A stretch of DNA of 64,000 nucleotides from Gemmatimonadaceae bacterium (GTDB lineage Bacteria; Gemmatimonadota; Gemmatimonadetes; Gemmatimonadales; Gemmatimonadaceae): assembly GCA_025928335.1 (NCBI GenBank), contig JAICJQ010000005.1, positions 1-64,000 on the forward strand. The letters are read 5' to 3'. The notes under the pieces are model-generated. The model was not told the origin of the DNA. It searched no databases and saw nothing but the letters and a program-made list of their open reading frames with translations. This document shows, piece after piece, positions 4,253 to 10,342 of this stretch. A program made the translations under genes and the position numbers. Position 1 is the first letter of the stretch, and every line of letters begins with the position of its first letter.

Positions 4253-4316
4253 CGAGCGACTCGGCGACTCGGCGACTCGGCGACTCGGCGACTCGGCGAC
4301 TCGGCGACTCGGCGCT
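4253..4316. repeat. Octamer tandem repeat (TCGGCGAC)n between btuB and recO
   Basis: Six exact copies of TCGGCGAC occupy 4261-4308, flanked by one degenerate copy on each side. The last bases run into the btuB stop codon at 4315-4317. An exact octamer array of this kind is prone to slippage and probably varies in copy number. Related short units occur at about 10303-10330 and 57764-57790. Confidence 0.95.
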
Positions 4317-6279
4317 AAAAGCTTGTGCGCGCTCCGATCAAAAGGGTCCGGCGCGGACTGAGGAAGTTGAATACCGACGCGTATTGCGTGTCGAAGAGAT
4401 TCTCGGCGTGAAGCGTGAGCTCGGTCGTCGCGAACCGCGGGTTGAGGCGGGCGAGGGCGAGTGTCGCACCGACATCGGTGCGCGTGTACGCCGAGTCGAT
4501 GACGGCGACGAAGGGAAAGGGGCGGAAGTCGCGATCGCCGCGCTCGCCGACGCGAATGACGTGCACGTCGACGCTACCGATCGACGTCGTGTACGCGCCG
4601 CCGAGCGTCCATGATGTCGTTGGCCGCCGAATAAGACTCTGGCCCCGTAGGTAGAGGCCACTGGACGACGTATCGAAGCCGGGCGCGAGGACCTTGGTCT
4701 CGAGATGGGTGAGGTTTGCGTCGACGGTGAGCGCGCGGAAGGGTGTGTAGCGTACCTCGAATTCCCTGCCCTTCGCCGTCGCCAGCGCGACGTTGCAGTA
4801 GCTGGCGCCACAGGCCTTATCCGACCCGGTGTAGTCGATCATGTCGCGGAAGCGCTGATCGAAGTGCGTTACGCCCAGCTCGAGGCGGTCATCCGCGAGA
4901 CTCTGGCGGAATCCGACCTCCCAACTGCGCGTCCGCTCGGGACGCAGCGCATGGTTTCCGGTGACGAATCCGGTCGAGTAGTTCTCGAGGAACGTGGGCT
5001 CGCGGAACGCCGTGCCGACGGACGCCCGAATGCGCGACCCGCGCAGCGGGCTCCAACTTCCACCCACGCGGTACGTATCGAATTTGCCGAACCGCTCATT
5101 GTCATCGTGGCGCAAGCCGGCGGTGATCACGACCGCGGCGGGCAGCCGCGAGCTCAACTCGGCGTAGCCGGCGGCGTTGCGGCGCGCCGCCTCGAAGATC
5201 GACGAGAACTCCGACGTCCCGAACACGCTGTGGCTCTCGGACCGCTCGTCCTCCTGCTCCAACTGCGCGCCGGCGGTGAGGACCGTCGCATCGACGACCG
5301 GAATGTCGGCGCGGAGATCCGCCGATCGGCGACGCGTACGGTCGATCGAGACGTAATCGCCGCTCGACGGTTGATTGGAGCCGCCTGACGTCGAGTTCGA
5401 AGCGACGCTGAGGCGCGTCGTCACGCGGCCGAGCCGTCGTTCGAGCTCGGCGCCGAGCACGGTGCGTTCGAGGGTTTGGAAGGCGGCGCTGTCAACGATG
5501 TCGCCGCCACCATTCGTCGGAAAATGGTACGCCTCGTCGCCGTAGCGCGCCGAGAAGCGCAGATCCGTGTTGGCGTCGAGCGCGACATGCACCGCGCCGC
5601 TGCCGATGCTGTTGTGCAAGGCGTTGTTGATCGGATAAATCCCGCGGGTGTCGTGGCGCGCGACACCGAGCGACAGATCGCCGTTCGCGAATGGTCCGAG
5701 GACGGTCGCGTCGGCGTCGGTGGTTCCGTAGTTGCCGGTCCGCGCCGAGATGATGGTGCGCGCGGCGCCGTGGCCTCGACGGGTGAAGATCTGGATGACA
5801 CCGGTGACGGCATCGGCGCCATACAGCACACTCGCCGGCCCGCGGACGACTTCGATTCGTTCGATGTTGTCCGTGGTGAGCGAGCCGAAGTCGATCGCGC
5901 CGCCGGGATCATTCACCGCCACTCCATCGATGAGCACTTTGACATACTTGCTCTCGCCGCCGCGCACGAAGAGCGATGTGTTCCCGCCGAATGAACCGGT
6001 GCGCGCGAAGGTCACGCCGGGGAGCACTTCGAGGGCCGTGGAGAGCGACGTGATTCCGCGCAGTCGCAGCTGTTCGCCGGTGATGATGTCCACTGTGGCG
6101 GGAGACTCGTCGCGCCCGAGAGGCACGCGCGTCGCAGTGATGACCATGGGCGCGACTCGCGCCGTGTCCGGCTGCTGCGCAGTGAGACCCGAGGCAAAGG
6201 CCGTGGCGGTTGCAATGAGCAATGTGGATCGAGGGCGCATGAGAGGGACCGAGTCGAAGAGGGAAAAGCGACACGTCAT
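4315..6279 (-). CDS. btuB: TonB-dependent outer-membrane receptor, probable cobalamin receptor BtuB
   Basis: A ligand-gated outer-membrane channel of 654 residues. An N-terminal signal peptide ends near LTAQQ. A TonB-box-like segment (APMVITATR, about residues 43-51) follows, then the plug domain (TVDIITGEQLRLRG, IDGVAVNDPGG, VRGPASVLYGADAVTGVIQIFTRRG) and a 22-strand-type barrel ending RRTLLIGARTSF with a terminal Phe. I choose the ATG at 6279 because it forms an ATGA overlap with the btuD stop; an ATG at 6240 would give a tighter signal peptide. Receptor families overlap in sequence, so the cobalamin call rests mainly on position as last gene of a B12-riboswitch operon with btuF, btuC and btuD. 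Confidence 0.87.
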   Translation of the reverse strand: MTCRFSLFDSVPLMRPRSTLLIATATAFASGLTAQQPDTARVAPMVITATRVPLGRDESPATVDIITGEQLRLRGITSLSTALEVLPGVTFARTGSFGGNTSLFVRGGESKYVKVLIDGVAVNDPGGAIDFGSLTTDNIERIEVVRGPASVLYGADAVTGVIQIFTRRGHGAARTIISARTGNYGTTDADATVLGPFANGDLSLGVARHDTRGIYPINNALHNSIGSGAVHVALDANTDLRFSARYGDEAYHFPTNGGGDIVDSAAFQTLERTVLGAELERRLGRVTTRLSVASNSTSGGSNQPSSGDYVSIDRTRRRSADLRADIPVVDATVLTAGAQLEQEDERSESHSVFGTSEFSSIFEAARRNAAGYAELSSRLPAAVVITAGLRHDDNERFGKFDTYRVGGSWSPLRGSRIRASVGTAFREPTFLENYSTGFVTGNHALRPERTRSWEVGFRQSLADDRLELGVTHFDQRFRDMIDYTGSDKACGASYCNVALATAKGREFEVRYTPFRALTVDANLTHLETKVLAPGFDTSSSGLYLRGQSLIRRPTTSWTLGGAYTTSIGSVDVHVIRVGERGDRDFRPFPFVAVIDSAYTRTDVGATLALARLNPRFATTELTLHAENLFDTQYASVFNFLSPRRTLLIGARTSF

Positions 6280-7055
6280 CGTGATCGCCGGAGAACGAGG
6301 GTCGGAGTGCCGTCGACGGGGTCGGCGGCAATTGAAATGGGCCATTGGTACACGCGTTCGAGAACGCTTGGCTGCATGACGTCGCTCGGCGACCCGTCGG
6401 CGACGACGCGGCCGTGGTCGAGCAGCACCAGATGCGACGCGAACCGCGCGACGAGGTTGAGCTCGTGGCTGACGAGCAGAATCGTTTGGCCGGCGTGCGC
6501 CAGGCGCTCGAGCAGCTCAAACACCGCCATTTGATGGCCGATGTCGAGGAACGTGGTCGGTTCGTCGAGCACGAGCACGTCGCCGCCTTGTGCGAGCGCG
6601 CGCGCGAGGCGTACCCGCTGCCACTCGCCGCCGGAGAGTGTATCGACGCGCCGCTCGACGAGATCGTCGACGCCGGCGGTGCGCATTGCCTCGGCGATCG
6701 CCGTCTCGTCCACCGGACCGGCCACGTGCCACACGCCGAGATGCGGAAACCGGCCGATCGCGACGTAGTCGCTGACGAGTACAGGAAAGGTCAAATCCTC
6801 GCGCTGCGTGACGACGGCAACGCGACGCGCCAGCTCCGGACCGTCCAACTCATCCAGCGGTCGGCCGTCGACTGAGATGCGTCCCTGACGCAACGGAACC
6901 CGGCGAATCAAGCTCCGAACAATTGTGCTCTTCCCACTGCCATTCGGCCCCACCACAGCGGTGATTGCCCCGCGCGGCGTCGCCAGCGAGACACGGTCGA
7001 GCGCGTCACGTTCGGCGCCGGGATAGCGCACCGTCGCGCCGTCGAAGGAGATCAC
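6276..7055 (-). CDS. btuD: Cobalamin ABC importer, ATPase subunit
   Basis: The ATPase of a type II ABC importer, 259 residues, cytoplasmic face of the inner membrane. Walker A GPNGSGKST is near residues 30-38, Q-loop VVTQRED near 80, signature LSGGEWQRVRLARAL near 135, Walker B VLVLDEPTTFLD near 157, and switch histidine in LLVSHELN. The GTG at 7055 is chosen because it overlaps the btuC stop (GTGA) and removes a basic, non-homologous upstream extension. It overlaps btuB by four bases, so all four transport genes are probably translationally coupled. Siderophore importers have closely related ATPases; the riboswitch argues for cobalamin. Confidence 0.92.
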   Translation of the reverse strand: MISFDGATVRYPGAERDALDRVSLATPRGAITAVVGPNGSGKSTIVRSLIRRVPLRQGRISVDGRPLDELDGPELARRVAVVTQREDLTFPVLVSDYVAIGRFPHLGVWHVAGPVDETAIAEAMRTAGVDDLVERRVDTLSGGEWQRVRLARALAQGGDVLVLDEPTTFLDIGHQMAVFELLERLAHAGQTILLVSHELNLVARFASHLVLLDHGRVVADGSPSDVMQPSVLERVYQWPISIAADPVDGTPTLVLRRSR

Positions 7056-8023
7056 GTGAGCCGTCGCAGCTTGGCGAGAAAGAACGGCACGCCAACGAGC
7101 GCCGTGACGGCGCCGAGCGGCAATTCCGCGGGCGGTCGCAAAACGCGCCCGAGCAAATCGGCACTCACGACGAGCGTTGCGCCGATGAGCGCGCTGGCGA
7201 CGAGGAGCGATCGGTGCCTTCGCAGACCGAACGCGCGTGCGATGTGAGGCACGACGAGCCCGACAAACCCGACGAGCCCCGCGGCGGCAACGGTCGCCGC
7301 GGCGAGGAGCGACGAGACGAAGAACACGCGCCGAATTGCTGTGTCGACGTCGAGTCCCAAACCGGCCGCCGCGTCTTCGCCGAGGGCGAGCACATCGATC
7401 TGACGACCGAGTGTAAACAGCGCGCCGCCGCCCAAGACGAGATAACCCGACAGCACCGCGATTTGCGGCCAGGTGGCCTCGCCCACCGAACCCATCATCC
7501 ACCAGAGGGCGTTGCGGACAGTATTCGGCTCGGCATTGGCGAGAACGACCATGATCGCCGCGTTGGCAAATGCGCCGACGACAACACCGGCCATGAGGAG
7601 CACGCGCGGATCTCCGCGAGCGCCCGCCGCATGCGCTACCACGAACGCCGCCAGCACGGCGACGATCGCACCGGCGAAGGCGGCGAGGGGCAAAAACGCG
7701 CCGGTGACGCCGGCCGCCTGCGCCAGCACGGCGCCGACCGCTGCTCCGCCGGAGACGCCGAGGAGGTAGGGCTCGGCGAGCGGATTGCGCATCGTCCCCT
7801 GAAGCGCCGCGCCGGACATCCCGAGGCCCACGCCGACGAGAGACGCCATCACGACGCGTGGCAGCCGCAGCGCCCGGACGACGTAGGTGAGCTGGGTATC
7901 TCCCGTTCCACGCAGAGCATCCCAGATCGCTGATATAGGAACTGGAATTGTCCCGACGGCGATCGCGAGGATCGAGACGGCGGCGAGGACAACGCCAAGC
8001 AAGAGCCAGCGGCCCGTTGACAT
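7052..8023 (-). CDS. btuC: Cobalamin ABC importer, permease subunit (FecCD family)
   Basis: An integral inner-membrane permease of 323 residues with about ten hydrophobic segments. Family signatures are MRNPLAEPYLLGVSGGAAVGA near residues 75-95 (written here in two parts: MRNPLAEPYLLG and VSGGAAVGA) and GLVGFVGLVVPHIAR near 250, the region that contacts the ATPase. The ATG at 8023 lies one base after the btuF stop. Upstream open sequence in this frame is basic and lacks family character, so it is left out. It overlaps btuD by four bases. Confidence 0.93.
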   Translation of the reverse strand: MSTGRWLLLGVVLAAVSILAIAVGTIPVPISAIWDALRGTGDTQLTYVVRALRLPRVVMASLVGVGLGMSGAALQGTMRNPLAEPYLLGVSGGAAVGAVLAQAAGVTGAFLPLAAFAGAIVAVLAAFVVAHAAGARGDPRVLLMAGVVVGAFANAAIMVVLANAEPNTVRNALWWMMGSVGEATWPQIAVLSGYLVLGGGALFTLGRQIDVLALGEDAAAGLGLDVDTAIRRVFFVSSLLAAATVAAAGLVGFVGLVVPHIARAFGLRRHRSLLVASALIGATLVVSADLLGRVLRPPAELPLGAVTALVGVPFFLAKLRRLT

Positions 8024-8024
8024 G

Positions 8025-8969
8025 TCAGTGCACCACGCCGGGATGAAGGAGATCGGCGAGGGAGCGCGCGGCGGCGCCGAGCGTGACCGACGGACGCCCG
8101 ACGATCGTCGTGTCGAACACGAGAACGTGACCGCCCCGCACCGCGGGGACGGCCTGCCAGCGCGGGTCTGACCGAATGCTGGCCGCGGTGATCGGACTCG
8201 CCAGGACAAAGTCCGGGTTCCGGCGCACGACATCCTCGATGGTGACGATGCCGGACGGTCCCGGCAGATCGGCGTAGACGTTGCGACCACCGGCGATGTC
8301 GACCAACTCGTTCAGGAAGCTTCCGCCGCCGATCGTGATCAACGGCCTGTCCCATGTGTGGAAGAACACCGTGGGACGCGGCAGCGTCTCCGTCGCCGCG
8401 CGAACGCGATCGAGTGTGGCGCGCACGGAGTCGACGACGGTCGCGGCTTGTGCCGAATCGCGCGTCAGGCGACCAAGCAAGCGCGTGTCACGCTCGAATT
8501 GTGCGATGCTGTCGATACGGAGTGCGGCGGTGGCGATTCCGGCTTGCCGAAGACGATCCGCGGCCGCGCGATTATCCTGGCTCGCGTAGAGCACGACGAG
8601 GTCCGGCCTGGCGCCGATGATCGCTTCGACATTCGGGCGTAGCGCGGCGCCGAGGCTTGGCACGGCGATCGCCGATTCGGGGAAGGCGTCGTACATGGAA
8701 CGGCCAACGACGCGCGATCCCGCGCCGATGGCGAAGAGCACTTCGGTCGTCGTCGGGTTGAGCGAGACGATGCGTCGTGGTGCCGCGGCAATCGTCACCG
8801 GAGCGCCGAAGTCGTCTCGCACGGCGGCGACGTCGCGCTGCTCGGCGCGGTGACACGCGCCAAGCAACGACGCGCCGACGAATAGCGCGCGACATAAAAA
8901 CACGGGCATTCTGCCTGAGGAGAATGCCCGCGGTGCGAGACACGCCGACGATCGCGTCGGAATATCCAC
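8025..8969 (-). CDS. btuF: Cobalamin-binding (lipo)protein BtuF
   Basis: Substrate-binding component of the importer. The family segment RIVSLNPTTTEVLFAIG is at about residues 65-81, then DLVVLYASQDN and PRPTVFFHTWDRPLITIGGGSFLNEL, typical of the cluster A-3 fold. A lipobox LLGAC sits near residue 39. Two starts compete. GTG 8969 has a strong Shine-Dalgarno (GAGGA three bases upstream) but leaves a long tail before the signal peptide. ATG 8909 gives a standard 19-residue lipoprotein signal, has weak ribosome-binding sequence, and lies in the 3' arm of a terminator-like hairpin. I list the GTG but the mature protein is the same. Confidence 0.88.
   Translation of the reverse strand: MDIPTRSSACLAPRAFSSGRMPVFLCRALFVGASLLGACHRAEQRDVAAVRDDFGAPVTIAAAPRRIVSLNPTTTEVLFAIGAGSRVVGRSMYDAFPESAIAVPSLGAALRPNVEAIIGARPDLVVLYASQDNRAAADRLRQAGIATAALRIDSIAQFERDTRLLGRLTRDSAQAATVVDSVRATLDRVRAATETLPRPTVFFHTWDRPLITIGGGSFLNELVDIAGGRNVYADLPGPSGIVTIEDVVRRNPDFVLASPITAASIRSDPRWQAVPAVRGGHVLVFDTTIVGRPSVTLGAAARSLADLLHPGVVH
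8896..8930 (-). terminator. Terminator-like hairpin in the btuF leader or first codons
   Basis: A perfect 10-bp stem (8921-8930 with 8903-8912) with an 8-base loop is followed on the minus strand by GUGUUUUUAUG. It sits 70-100 bases past the B12 aptamer, where a riboswitch expression platform would be. If it terminates transcription, btuF would start at or after ATG 8909. If btuF starts at GTG 8969, the hairpin lies inside the coding region. Confidence 0.55.
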
Positions 8970-8972
8970 CAG

Positions 8973-8986
8973 TCCTCCCCCGAGGA
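8973..8986 (-). promoter_or_regulatory. Small hairpin hiding the btuF Shine-Dalgarno
   Basis: On the minus strand TCCTC-GGGG-GAGGA can fold into a 5-bp stem with a GGGG loop. Its 3' arm is the Shine-Dalgarno of GTG 8969. A G-rich loop downstream of the aptamer could make the long-range kissing contact with a C-rich loop of the aptamer (a CCCC stretch occurs there), a known way cobalamin riboswitches block translation. The pairing is inferred, not computed. Confidence 0.5.
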
Positions 8987-9000
8987 TCTGTGAAACAGTG

Positions 9001-9146
9001 GTGCGAACGGGGTCGTCTCCTGGCTCCGGGCTGCGGCGCTCCCCTTCCCGGCACTCAGCCAGTGGGATGATGAGCTCGCGTAGAACGCCCGTTACAGTGG
9101 CGGGGCCGCACCGGTCTCACACCGGTTTCCGTGTCCCGCGTTCGCC
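9001..9146 (-). promoter_or_regulatory. Cobalamin (B12) riboswitch aptamer upstream of btuFCDB
   Basis: Read on the minus strand, the leader contains the conserved parts in order: CGGGACACGGAAACCGGTG, then AGACCGGTGCGGCCCCGCC and ACTGTAACGG, then CCACTGGCTGAGTGCCGGGAA, and finally the B12 box AGCCAGGAGACGACC. Outer pairing between GCGAACG (near 9145) and CGTTCGC (near 9009) closes the aptamer. It starts just after the stop of the 9167-10342 gene, so its promoter may lie within that gene's 3' end. Cobalamin binding should reduce expression of the uptake genes. Confidence 0.95.
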
Positions 9147-9166
9147 TTCAGTTGTCGAAGCGAAGT

Positions 9167-10342
9167 CTACGACGATGGCCGCTCGCCGGCAAGCAGGTGC
9201 GCGAGCTCGGACTTGAGCGACGCACGCCGAGCCTCGTAGGTCGCGCGCGCCTCGCCACTCACATCCGTCGCGCGCTCGAAGGCGTCGTCGAGCTCAGCGA
9301 TCTCGCGGACGAGACGCTGGGATCCAACTTGCTTCAGGGCCGCGGCAACGCGGCGCGGACGGCGGCGCAACGCGAAAACGAGCGCGATGACCATGGCCGC
9401 GACAAAAAGCGCGCCGACACTGGAGTACACTCGCTCGCGGCTCCCGCCGACCTCGCGTGGTGGCTCGATGCGCACCACCGCACCCGCGCCAACATCTTGG
9501 GCGAGAAAGCGGCGAAACGTCCGTCCCTCGGCACTCACGGCGGGCGTTTCTCGCAGTCCCGGTCCCTGAACGCGCGTCGTGGGCTCTTGCACGAGCAGCT
9601 CGAGCACGCCGGCCGGCTTGTCCATGCGAACCGACAGTGGAAAGGCGCTCGCCGGCAGATTGTACGTGAAAGCGACTTGACGAATGCCCGGGCTCACCGG
9701 AGCAAACAAACCCACGGTTGTGCCGCGTCGCGTGAGAGCGCCTGCCGCCAGCTCGCCGTTGCCATTGAGCTGGAAGTCCGTCGCCGTCGCGGGAATCGTG
9801 GCGCTCCACACCGGCGTCAGGCTGTCGCGCGCAACGGCGGTCATCGTACTGTCATTCTGAAGGTCGAAGACCTCGCCAATGGGGCGCTGTCCCGCGGGCG
9901 TTGCGGCGCCGATCACCAAATGACGGCCGCCAATGTGCAGGCCGACGGGGCCCGACGTCGTGTCGAAGACGACGAGCAGCGCGTCATCGCCGCGCACGAC
10001 CGGCGTACGAAGGGGCGGTGTGTAGTAGGCGACGCCGCTGTACGACGTCGACACGAAATACACCGCGTCGGAATCACCCGAGACGCGATACTGAAAGTTG
10101 AACGCGCCACTCGGCGTCGTGCGGACCGAATCGAGCGGACCCGCGTGATCGCGGCCGACGCGATGCAGGATCACCCATTGGTTGGCGACCGGCGGCTGCC
10201 GCTCGCGCATCCCGCGCACCACGCGTCCTTCGACGCGCCGCGCCGAATCCTGCTGCAGGGCTCCGACGACCGGGTGGCCTCGCGGTTCCAGCGCCCAGCC
10301 GCCCAGTCGCCGAGTCGCCCAGTCGCCGAGCACGTCGCTCAC
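9167..10342 (-). CDS. Membrane-anchored protein with carboxypeptidase-regulatory-like domain
   Basis: A protein of 391 residues, not assigned to a known function. Residues about 33-110 resemble a carboxypeptidase regulatory-like beta sandwich (VEGRVVRG...SVRTTPSGAFNFQYRV). A further beta-rich region follows to about 300. One membrane segment (VGALFVAAMVIALVFALRRRPRR) lies near 303-325, and a charged helical tail (REIAELDDAFE, YEARRASLKSELAHLL) closes the protein. The layout, with a large outside part, one helix and a short cytoplasmic coil, would need a signal peptide, but the N terminus reads MSDVLGDWATRRLGGWALEP and has none; that part is encoded by short repeats like those at 4253. The GTG start overlaps the DUF151 gene stop (GTGA). 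It is the last gene of the 19-gene run. Confidence 0.72.
   Translation of the reverse strand: MSDVLGDWATRRLGGWALEPRGHPVVGALQQDSARRVEGRVVRGMRERQPPVANQWVILHRVGRDHAGPLDSVRTTPSGAFNFQYRVSGDSDAVYFVSTSYSGVAYYTPPLRTPVVRGDDALLVVFDTTSGPVGLHIGGRHLVIGAATPAGQRPIGEVFDLQNDSTMTAVARDSLTPVWSATIPATATDFQLNGNGELAAGALTRRGTTVGLFAPVSPGIRQVAFTYNLPASAFPLSVRMDKPAGVLELLVQEPTTRVQGPGLRETPAVSAEGRTFRRFLAQDVGAGAVVRIEPPREVGGSRERVYSSVGALFVAAMVIALVFALRRRPRRVAAALKQVGSQRLVREIAELDDAFERATDVSGEARATYEARRASLKSELAHLLAGERPSS

Follow-up and report, generated by a model that had tools for sequence, protein, structure and literature searches.

In the corrinoid riboswitch of Priestia megaterium metE, as described in the cited part of the report, an L5-L13 kissing loop stabilises P13, and B12 represses (PMC10653944). 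The leader examined in this study, which lies ahead of a btuF gene, appears to share with that system the kissing loop that stabilises P13, the P13 antiterminator design and repression by B12. It differs in that the cited part describes no ribosome site or start codon within the terminator hairpin, whereas the hairpin found here, designated hp2, carries a Shine-Dalgarno (SD) sequence and a start codon in its tail (PMC10653944). In the pT181 attenuator one hairpin is both a terminator and a lock on the ribosome-binding site (RBS), with AGGAG in its 3′ half, and kissing decides whether the antiterminator is available. By analogy with the published account, of which part is cited, it is the closest functional parallel to this leader, but that account concerns an antisense-RNA-controlled plasmid attenuator with its RBS 12 nt from the start codon, not a metabolite riboswitch (PMC5435934). 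The double lock of the hp2 type would be a variation on known B12 riboswitch and terminator designs. Within the titles and abstract openings of the open-licence literature searched, no Gemmatimonadota B12 switch of such a design was found.

Cobalamin riboswitches that act on translation through an SD sequence at L13 are named env8-type. Docking in translational cobalamin riboswitches occludes the RBS, according to the cited part of a review (PMC10907184). The likeness to the env8-type lies in an SD sequence in or beside L13 that would be masked on L5-L13 docking, and some relatives that lack hp2 start btuF right after L13. The difference is that most leaders here add a terminator hairpin with the start codon at the hairpin end. 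The M. tuberculosis metE and ppe2 switches, in the part of the report cited, also place an SD sequence and a start codon ahead of where the gene itself begins, and have a kissing loop. There the translation of an upstream open reading frame (uORF) regulates, whereas here the reading frame opened by a GTG in P13 is not conserved (PMC11260477).

The window, meaning the whole 64,000-nucleotide stretch of Gemmatimonadaceae DNA that was analysed, contains one match to the cobalamin riboswitch family RF00174, and this match is also the only one in the 79%-complete genome. It lies on the minus strand, as do all features given below, at 9015-9130. It covers model positions 47-167 of 189 and scores 72.9 bits with cmscan (gathering score 31.5, E 4.6e-16), defining the aptamer core. 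The preliminary description had proposed a B12 riboswitch leader and had suggested covariance models as a check, and the match to RF00174 supports the proposal. Sequence complementarity suggests a helix closing the aptamer between 9135-9146 (5′ strand) and 9003-9012 (3′ strand). In 74/130 leaders the two flanks can form an uninterrupted helix of 7 bp or more, with 17.8 expected when the 3′ flank is shuffled.

The genes 3′ of the riboswitch are ordered btuF-btuC-btuD-btuB and form an ordinary B12-uptake operon. They encode BtuF, the periplasmic B12-binding lipoprotein (8025-8903; PF01497, E 1e-30), a BtuC-like FecCD permease (7052-8023; PF01032, E 1.2e-83), a BtuD-like ABC ATPase with a provisional start (6276-7076; PF00005, E 1.2e-28) and a BtuB-like TonB-dependent receptor (4315-6345; PF00593, PF07715). 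The position expected of RF00174 members, ahead of B12 transport or synthesis genes, is thus seen in the window as well as in related loci, with BtuF downstream in 115/134 leaders. Judged from sequence, the leader is a cobalamin riboswitch ahead of B12-uptake genes, and cobalamin binding is predicted. A 391-residue open reading frame that ends just upstream of the leader (9167-10342) gave no Pfam match.

Related leaders were collected from the Gemmatimonadota order of the window. BtuF was present in 57/59 genomes, the window's own genome counted, and RF00174 in 54/59; within the family RF00174 was present in 107/109 genomes (106 above the cut-off). A contig search with a single BtuF protein as query returned 0 loci, while a BtuF alignment (A1) returned 63, nearly all from Gemmatimonadetes/Gemmatimonadaceae and one of them from an isolate, Roseisolibacter sp. 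H3M3-2. In total 134 leaders were collected from a subset of the riboswitch matches, the window's included, 115 with a BtuF reading frame downstream and 19 without a BtuF match. P13 was not recognized by pattern in 1/115 and no hairpin was returned by the finder in 6/114, leaving 108/114 with a hairpin. From these 108 automatic hp2 picks, 18 were set aside by eye as another hairpin with the flanks in view, which favours the figures for the 90 accepted leaders; results for the unselected 108 are therefore given as well. A held-out set of 24 loci, 5 of which gave no leader, contributed 19 leaders without selection by eye. For covariation a structure-blind alignment (A2) was made of 40 leaders, at most three per genus of the window's family, from 48 so listed; eight more divergent leaders (genera g15, g22, g24 and g45) were left out. 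Related leaders are non-independent sequences, and genus-level counts are given for some tests. SD energies were computed with the standard anti-SD, which was assumed for the host and may not be its own, and an exact-pattern search of the 79%-complete genome for the canonical 16S 3′ end gave no match.

The arrangement of riboswitch and btuF varies among some genomes. In G001, of the window's genus (contig C21, 80946-81824 and 94571-95846), the btuF orthologue has no adjacent riboswitch match. The sole cobalamin riboswitch found in that genome is ∼14 kb distant, ahead of a BtuF-like gene that has diverged (35% identity). In G004, of the same genus, the riboswitch match (C101:29059-29258, L068) has no BtuF match in the downstream stretch, and btuF is on another contig. 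Many genomes of genus g22 have a second cobalamin riboswitch with a far higher score (about 110-125 bits), and most of these second riboswitches were left out of the leader set. The second riboswitch of G026 (C1:2076857-2077070, L032) has no BtuF match in its downstream stretch.

Downstream of the aptamer the preliminary description had placed a small hairpin hiding a strong SD sequence. The hairpin is present, and its inner part carries an SD-like GGGGGAGG that directly precedes GTG 8969, but the conserved role of the element appears to be that of P13/L13 with its kissing loop. P13/L13 (8966-9002) consists of an outer CCAC/GTGG pairing and an inner hairpin (8970-8990) with the loop GGGG. The P13 core CCTCGGGGGAGG and the outer GCCAC/GTGGC pair are kept nearly everywhere among the leaders. 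In A2 (40 leaders), 89.4% of P13 cells are paired, compared with 39.7-72.8% in slid controls. Two of five measures were weak against shuffles (88/500 for pairs changed on both sides, 49/500 for pair types) because the element hardly varies. The RNAalifold consensus fold of A2 finds hp2 and not P13 as drawn, pairing columns 3-15 with 34-44.

The GGGG of L13 complements the C-rich GGCCCC in the loop of L5, a hairpin of the aptamer (9099-9111). L5 could be read in 105/134 leaders, with one misread, and had the sequence GGTCCC in five (G007, G025, G065, G066 and G106). The L13 loops of these five are GGTGGA, GGAAGA, GGAGCA twice and GGGGCA, and they are absent from every other leader. Two held-out loci, L169 and L215, likewise have an unusual L13 together with L5 GGTCCC; these and the five may share some of their origins. 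In G072 L13 is shifted, whereas L5 is ordinary. The simplest reading of the complementary loops and their co-variation is that they represent the known L5-L13 kissing loop, which is a feature of RF00174. The variable tip flanked by CACTG and GGGAA was also considered as the kissing loop and rejected, being unconserved; the C-rich loop before ACTGTAA fits L13. By this comparison, what had been read as a hidden SD sequence is L13, a G-rich loop that is kept as an RNA element irrespective of any use that ribosomes make of it.

Further downstream, a terminator-like hairpin with an in-frame ATG at 8909 in its 3′ arm had been reported, and this was confirmed: hp2 is predicted at 8901-8932, is followed by TTTTT at 8896-8900, and the frame of the ATG is that of btuF. 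The region 8896-8998 has a predicted folding energy of −51 kcal/mol (z −5.6). A terminator-like pattern alone was no better than chance, with 1 in 8000-9600 against 0.8 expected in shuffles. What places hp2 above chance is its conservation, namely covariation in the 40 leaders of A2 and an in-frame start at the hairpin end in 86/90 leaders. The paired fraction of hp2 cells in A2 was 85.5%, against 42.8-52.2% when slid, and 10/12 pairs had changes on both sides, with 55 cells so changed against 18.5 in shuffles. A single conserved start combined with an unconserved hairpin had been named as grounds for giving up the earlier proposal; hp2 is conserved and covaries.

The 12 nt after hp2 are rich in T, with a fraction of 0.557 in the 90 accepted leaders, 0.505 in all 108 and 0.539 in the 19 held out (background 0.169). 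Counted from the end of the stem, T begins with 0.83, 0.72, 0.68 and 0.67 and remains at least 0.43 through position 9 (90 leaders, background 0.168); over all 108 the range for positions 0-9 is 0.39-0.73. A is depleted over the same positions. The U-tract of the window itself has five T only. An SD core is found in the hp2 3′ arm of 63/90 accepted leaders and in the 5′ arm of 0/90 (64 and 3 of 108 unselected, 13 and 0 of 19 held out). The combination of a covarying hairpin with a T-rich tail is that of an intrinsic terminator, and termination is predicted. We conclude from these comparisons that hp2 is probably an intrinsic terminator that also accommodates the ribosome site, in the 3′ arm, and the start codon, in the tail. 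For comparison, in the cited part of a fluoride riboswitch survey, start codons lie 28 nt after the termination site in the majority of cases (PMC13273304).

The position of the btuF start was examined in all three frames. A btuF-frame start lies between −3 and +12 of the hp2 end in 86/90 leaders, compared with 8 and 12 in the other frames. Without selection, 88 of 108 leaders have an in-frame start at the hp2 end (12 and 15 in the other frames), and 17 of the 19 held out do so (1 and 3). In 30/31 genera every leader has an in-frame start near the hp2 end. Within ∼25 nt of the hp2 end, the earliest start codon in frame is GTG in 43, TTG in 39 and ATG in 6 of the 90 leaders, and 2 have none. 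SD energies at the chosen hp2 starts have a median of −7.3, and 78/86 are at or below −4; random positions have a median of −2.8, and 29% reach −4. The lipobox Cys lies at a median residue of 23 from these starts (interquartile range 19-26, 77/86 scored; G069, whose BtuF match is partial and produced an artefact, was excluded from signal-peptide counts).

By homology, the most likely btuF start in the window is GTG 8903 (8901-8903, MFLCRALFVGASLLGAC) at the hp2 end, which places the Cys at residue 17. An alternative in the same frame is ATG 8909 (8907-8909), located two codons upstream inside the hp2 3′ arm. This ATG had been put forward as one of two btuF starts, but as a conserved start it fares poorly, an in-frame ATG occurring in the hp2 3′ arm of 10/90 leaders, compared with 5 and 4 for the two remaining frames. 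Alignment of btuF starts in relatives, the check that had been suggested, found the start conserved at the hp2 end, GTG 8903 here, while the frame of GTG 8969 was not conserved. Across the leaders the SD core lies in the hairpin (63/90) and the in-frame start at its end (86/90), but the SD sequence of the window is weak, with energies of −3.6 at GTG 8903 and −2.5 at ATG 8909, compared with −11.3 kcal/mol at GTG 8969. The window is atypical: the SD sequence of its hp2 start is weak, and the strong one belongs to GTG 8969, which is also in frame.

Pairing between the P13 3′ strand and hp2 was assessed with permuted duplexes and a column test. One strand, comprising L13 and the 3′ side of P13 (8966-8982), is complementary to a second, comprising the flank and 5′ arm of hp2 (8917-8935). 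Over 31 genera, the cognate duplexes average −26.4 kcal/mol and the permuted ones −23.8 (sd 0.46, z −5.7), and 0/20,000 permutations of strands among the genera were as low as the cognate mean. In A2 columns 78.1% of cells are paired, against 47.9-64.1% when slid, and none of 500 shuffles reaches the observed covariation score. Two of the five column measures are weak, with 111/500 shuffles as high for pairs changed on both sides and 14/500 for pair types. Single L13 variants were also tried as proof of the pairing and were rejected: against canonical strands G066 and G007 favour their own partner, and G025, G065 and G106 do not. These variants being mixed, the case rests on the genus-level permutation and the column test. 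As in the P. megaterium metE type, the P13 3′ strand would pair with the terminator 5′ arm, here by complementarity and covariation, and it is likely the antiterminator.

These observations are probably best explained by a repressing cobalamin riboswitch in which hp2 is both terminator and ribosome-site lock, the P13 3′ strand is the antiterminator and btuF starts at the hp2 end. With B12 bound, L5 (CCCC) would kiss L13 (GGGG) and P13 would be held. hp2 would then fold, transcription would end at the U-tract, and in read-through transcripts the folded hairpin would bury the RBS and the start codon. Without B12, P13 would open and its 3′ strand (GGGGGAGGACTGGTGG) would pair with hp2 along the flank and the 5′ arm. 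This antiterminator would block hp2, so that transcription continues and the btuF start becomes accessible. That start is assigned to the hp2 end, GTG 8903, with ATG 8909 two codons upstream. Sequence comparison supports the aptamer, the covarying P13 and hp2, the T-rich tail, the start at the hp2 end, an SD sequence in the 3′ arm of most leaders and the antiterminator complementarity; the ligand response, the direction of control, actual termination, the translation block and the start used by this genome are what we infer. The preliminary description had allowed for translation block, termination or both. Both together is the best reading, but as separate switches the small hairpin and hp2 are unlikely, and one hairpin appears to be terminator and ribosome-site lock alike.

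A rather doubtful alternative, which the atypical SD sequences of the window bring forward, is that btuF starts here at GTG 8969 (8967-8969), with L13 as its SD sequence. The kissing loop would then block translation directly, and the hairpin would lie inside the coding region. A ribosome passing through would hold the hairpin open, and where B12 stops translation the hairpin could terminate, so that translation decides termination. If used, this GTG directly after L13 would resemble an env8-type start; its SD sequence is strong and its frame is open to btuF. In eight leaders without an accepted hp2 (G044, G050, G054, G042, G020, G040, G021 and G038) the P13 GTG is an open start, with the lipobox Cys at residue 15-24 in six; the pattern missed the Cys in G042 and G054. 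In genus g7 (L011, L094 and L099) 3/3 leaders have no btuF-frame start within 12 nt of the hp2 end, and their P13 GTG is in frame and open; two have no start within ∼25 nt either, and one has an ATG 14 nt on. The L13 GTG may be the btuF start of this genus, in which case the conserved terminator hairpin is part of the coding sequence. The hp2 SD sequence is also weaker where the P13 GTG is in frame and open (median −5.6, n=22, against −7.3, n=68; p 0.008, or 0.063 without g7). Over the leaders as a whole, however, the GTG is not supported as the btuF start. It is present in 77/90 leaders with btuF frames 0/1/2 of 31/22/24, 22 being in frame and open, and in the held-out set the frames are 5/7/5 of 17; without a clear frame preference it is not the btuF start as a rule. 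That GTG 8969 is kept in frame through the hairpin, which would make translation-coupled termination the rule (window, G003, G024), was rejected, since the computed frames disagree. Within the window's genus G003 is like the window (hp2 SD −3.8, GTG in frame) and G002 is intermediate (−6.1, in frame), but G005 has a strong hp2 SD sequence (−7.4) and a stop at the sixth codon of the frame from the P13 GTG. A start at GTG 8969 would place the Cys at residue 39, a long n-region, and the predicted fold puts this GTG within a linker-hairpin stem (8935-8969). Within the clade both starts seem to be in use, and the genome of the window could use either. Here btuF may have two N termini, since the two starts share its frame and the downstream one has a weak SD sequence. 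We also regard as tentative, and rather improbable, the broader proposal that two interchangeable starts lie under one B12 sensor, the start sliding in evolution between L13 and the terminator tail. Under this proposal L13 would be an always ready SD sequence because the kissing loop keeps it G-rich, and the L13 start would be live in the window and g7, so that the coding region would contain the intrinsic terminator and the continuation of transcription would be decided by translation rather than by RNA folding alone.

The remaining explanations each take one part of the double lock away. That hp2 is an RBS lock only, acting on translation, with the T-rich stretch as start-codon context and early Phe codons, is unlikely. 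It accommodates an SD core confined to the 3′ arm in accepted leaders, and also the tail, in which the start codon's G often interrupts the T-run and much of that run overlaps the start codon and those after it. The first two T-rich positions after the stem are, however, unexplained by codons, because they precede the start codon in 69/88 leaders with a start, and plain unstructured context fails to explain the tail, as A is depleted and not enriched. More unlikely still is that hp2 only terminates. The G-rich P13 antiterminator strand would demand a pyrimidine-rich hp2 5′ arm and hence a purine-rich 3′ arm, so that SD-like purines would follow from complementarity, but a start codon in the btuF frame right at the hairpin end would put the folded hp2 under the ribosome footprint. 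A very improbable explanation is that the P13 GTG opens a short regulatory uORF controlling btuF. The frequency of a GTG after L13 fits it, and the M. tuberculosis metE/ppe2 B12 switches provide a precedent in the cited part of that report (PMC11260477), but the length of the frame is unconserved, many stopping within 3-10 codons. The frame reaches the hp2 end in 58/77 leaders, where shuffled linkers would give 59.6; for want of any excess, a conserved uORF extending through hp2 was rejected, and this chance-level openness also argues against GTG 8969 as the btuF start.

If the double lock is correct, hp2 would be a natural example, found across many genera, in which one hairpin seems to serve both as transcription terminator and as ribosome-site lock, its U-tract containing the start codon. 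A kissing-loop sequence that doubles as a ribosome site may help to account for shifts of B12 switches between acting on translation and acting on transcription. The TTG and GTG starts within such U-tracts are easily misplaced by gene callers, and in the window GTG 8969 is a tempting alternative.
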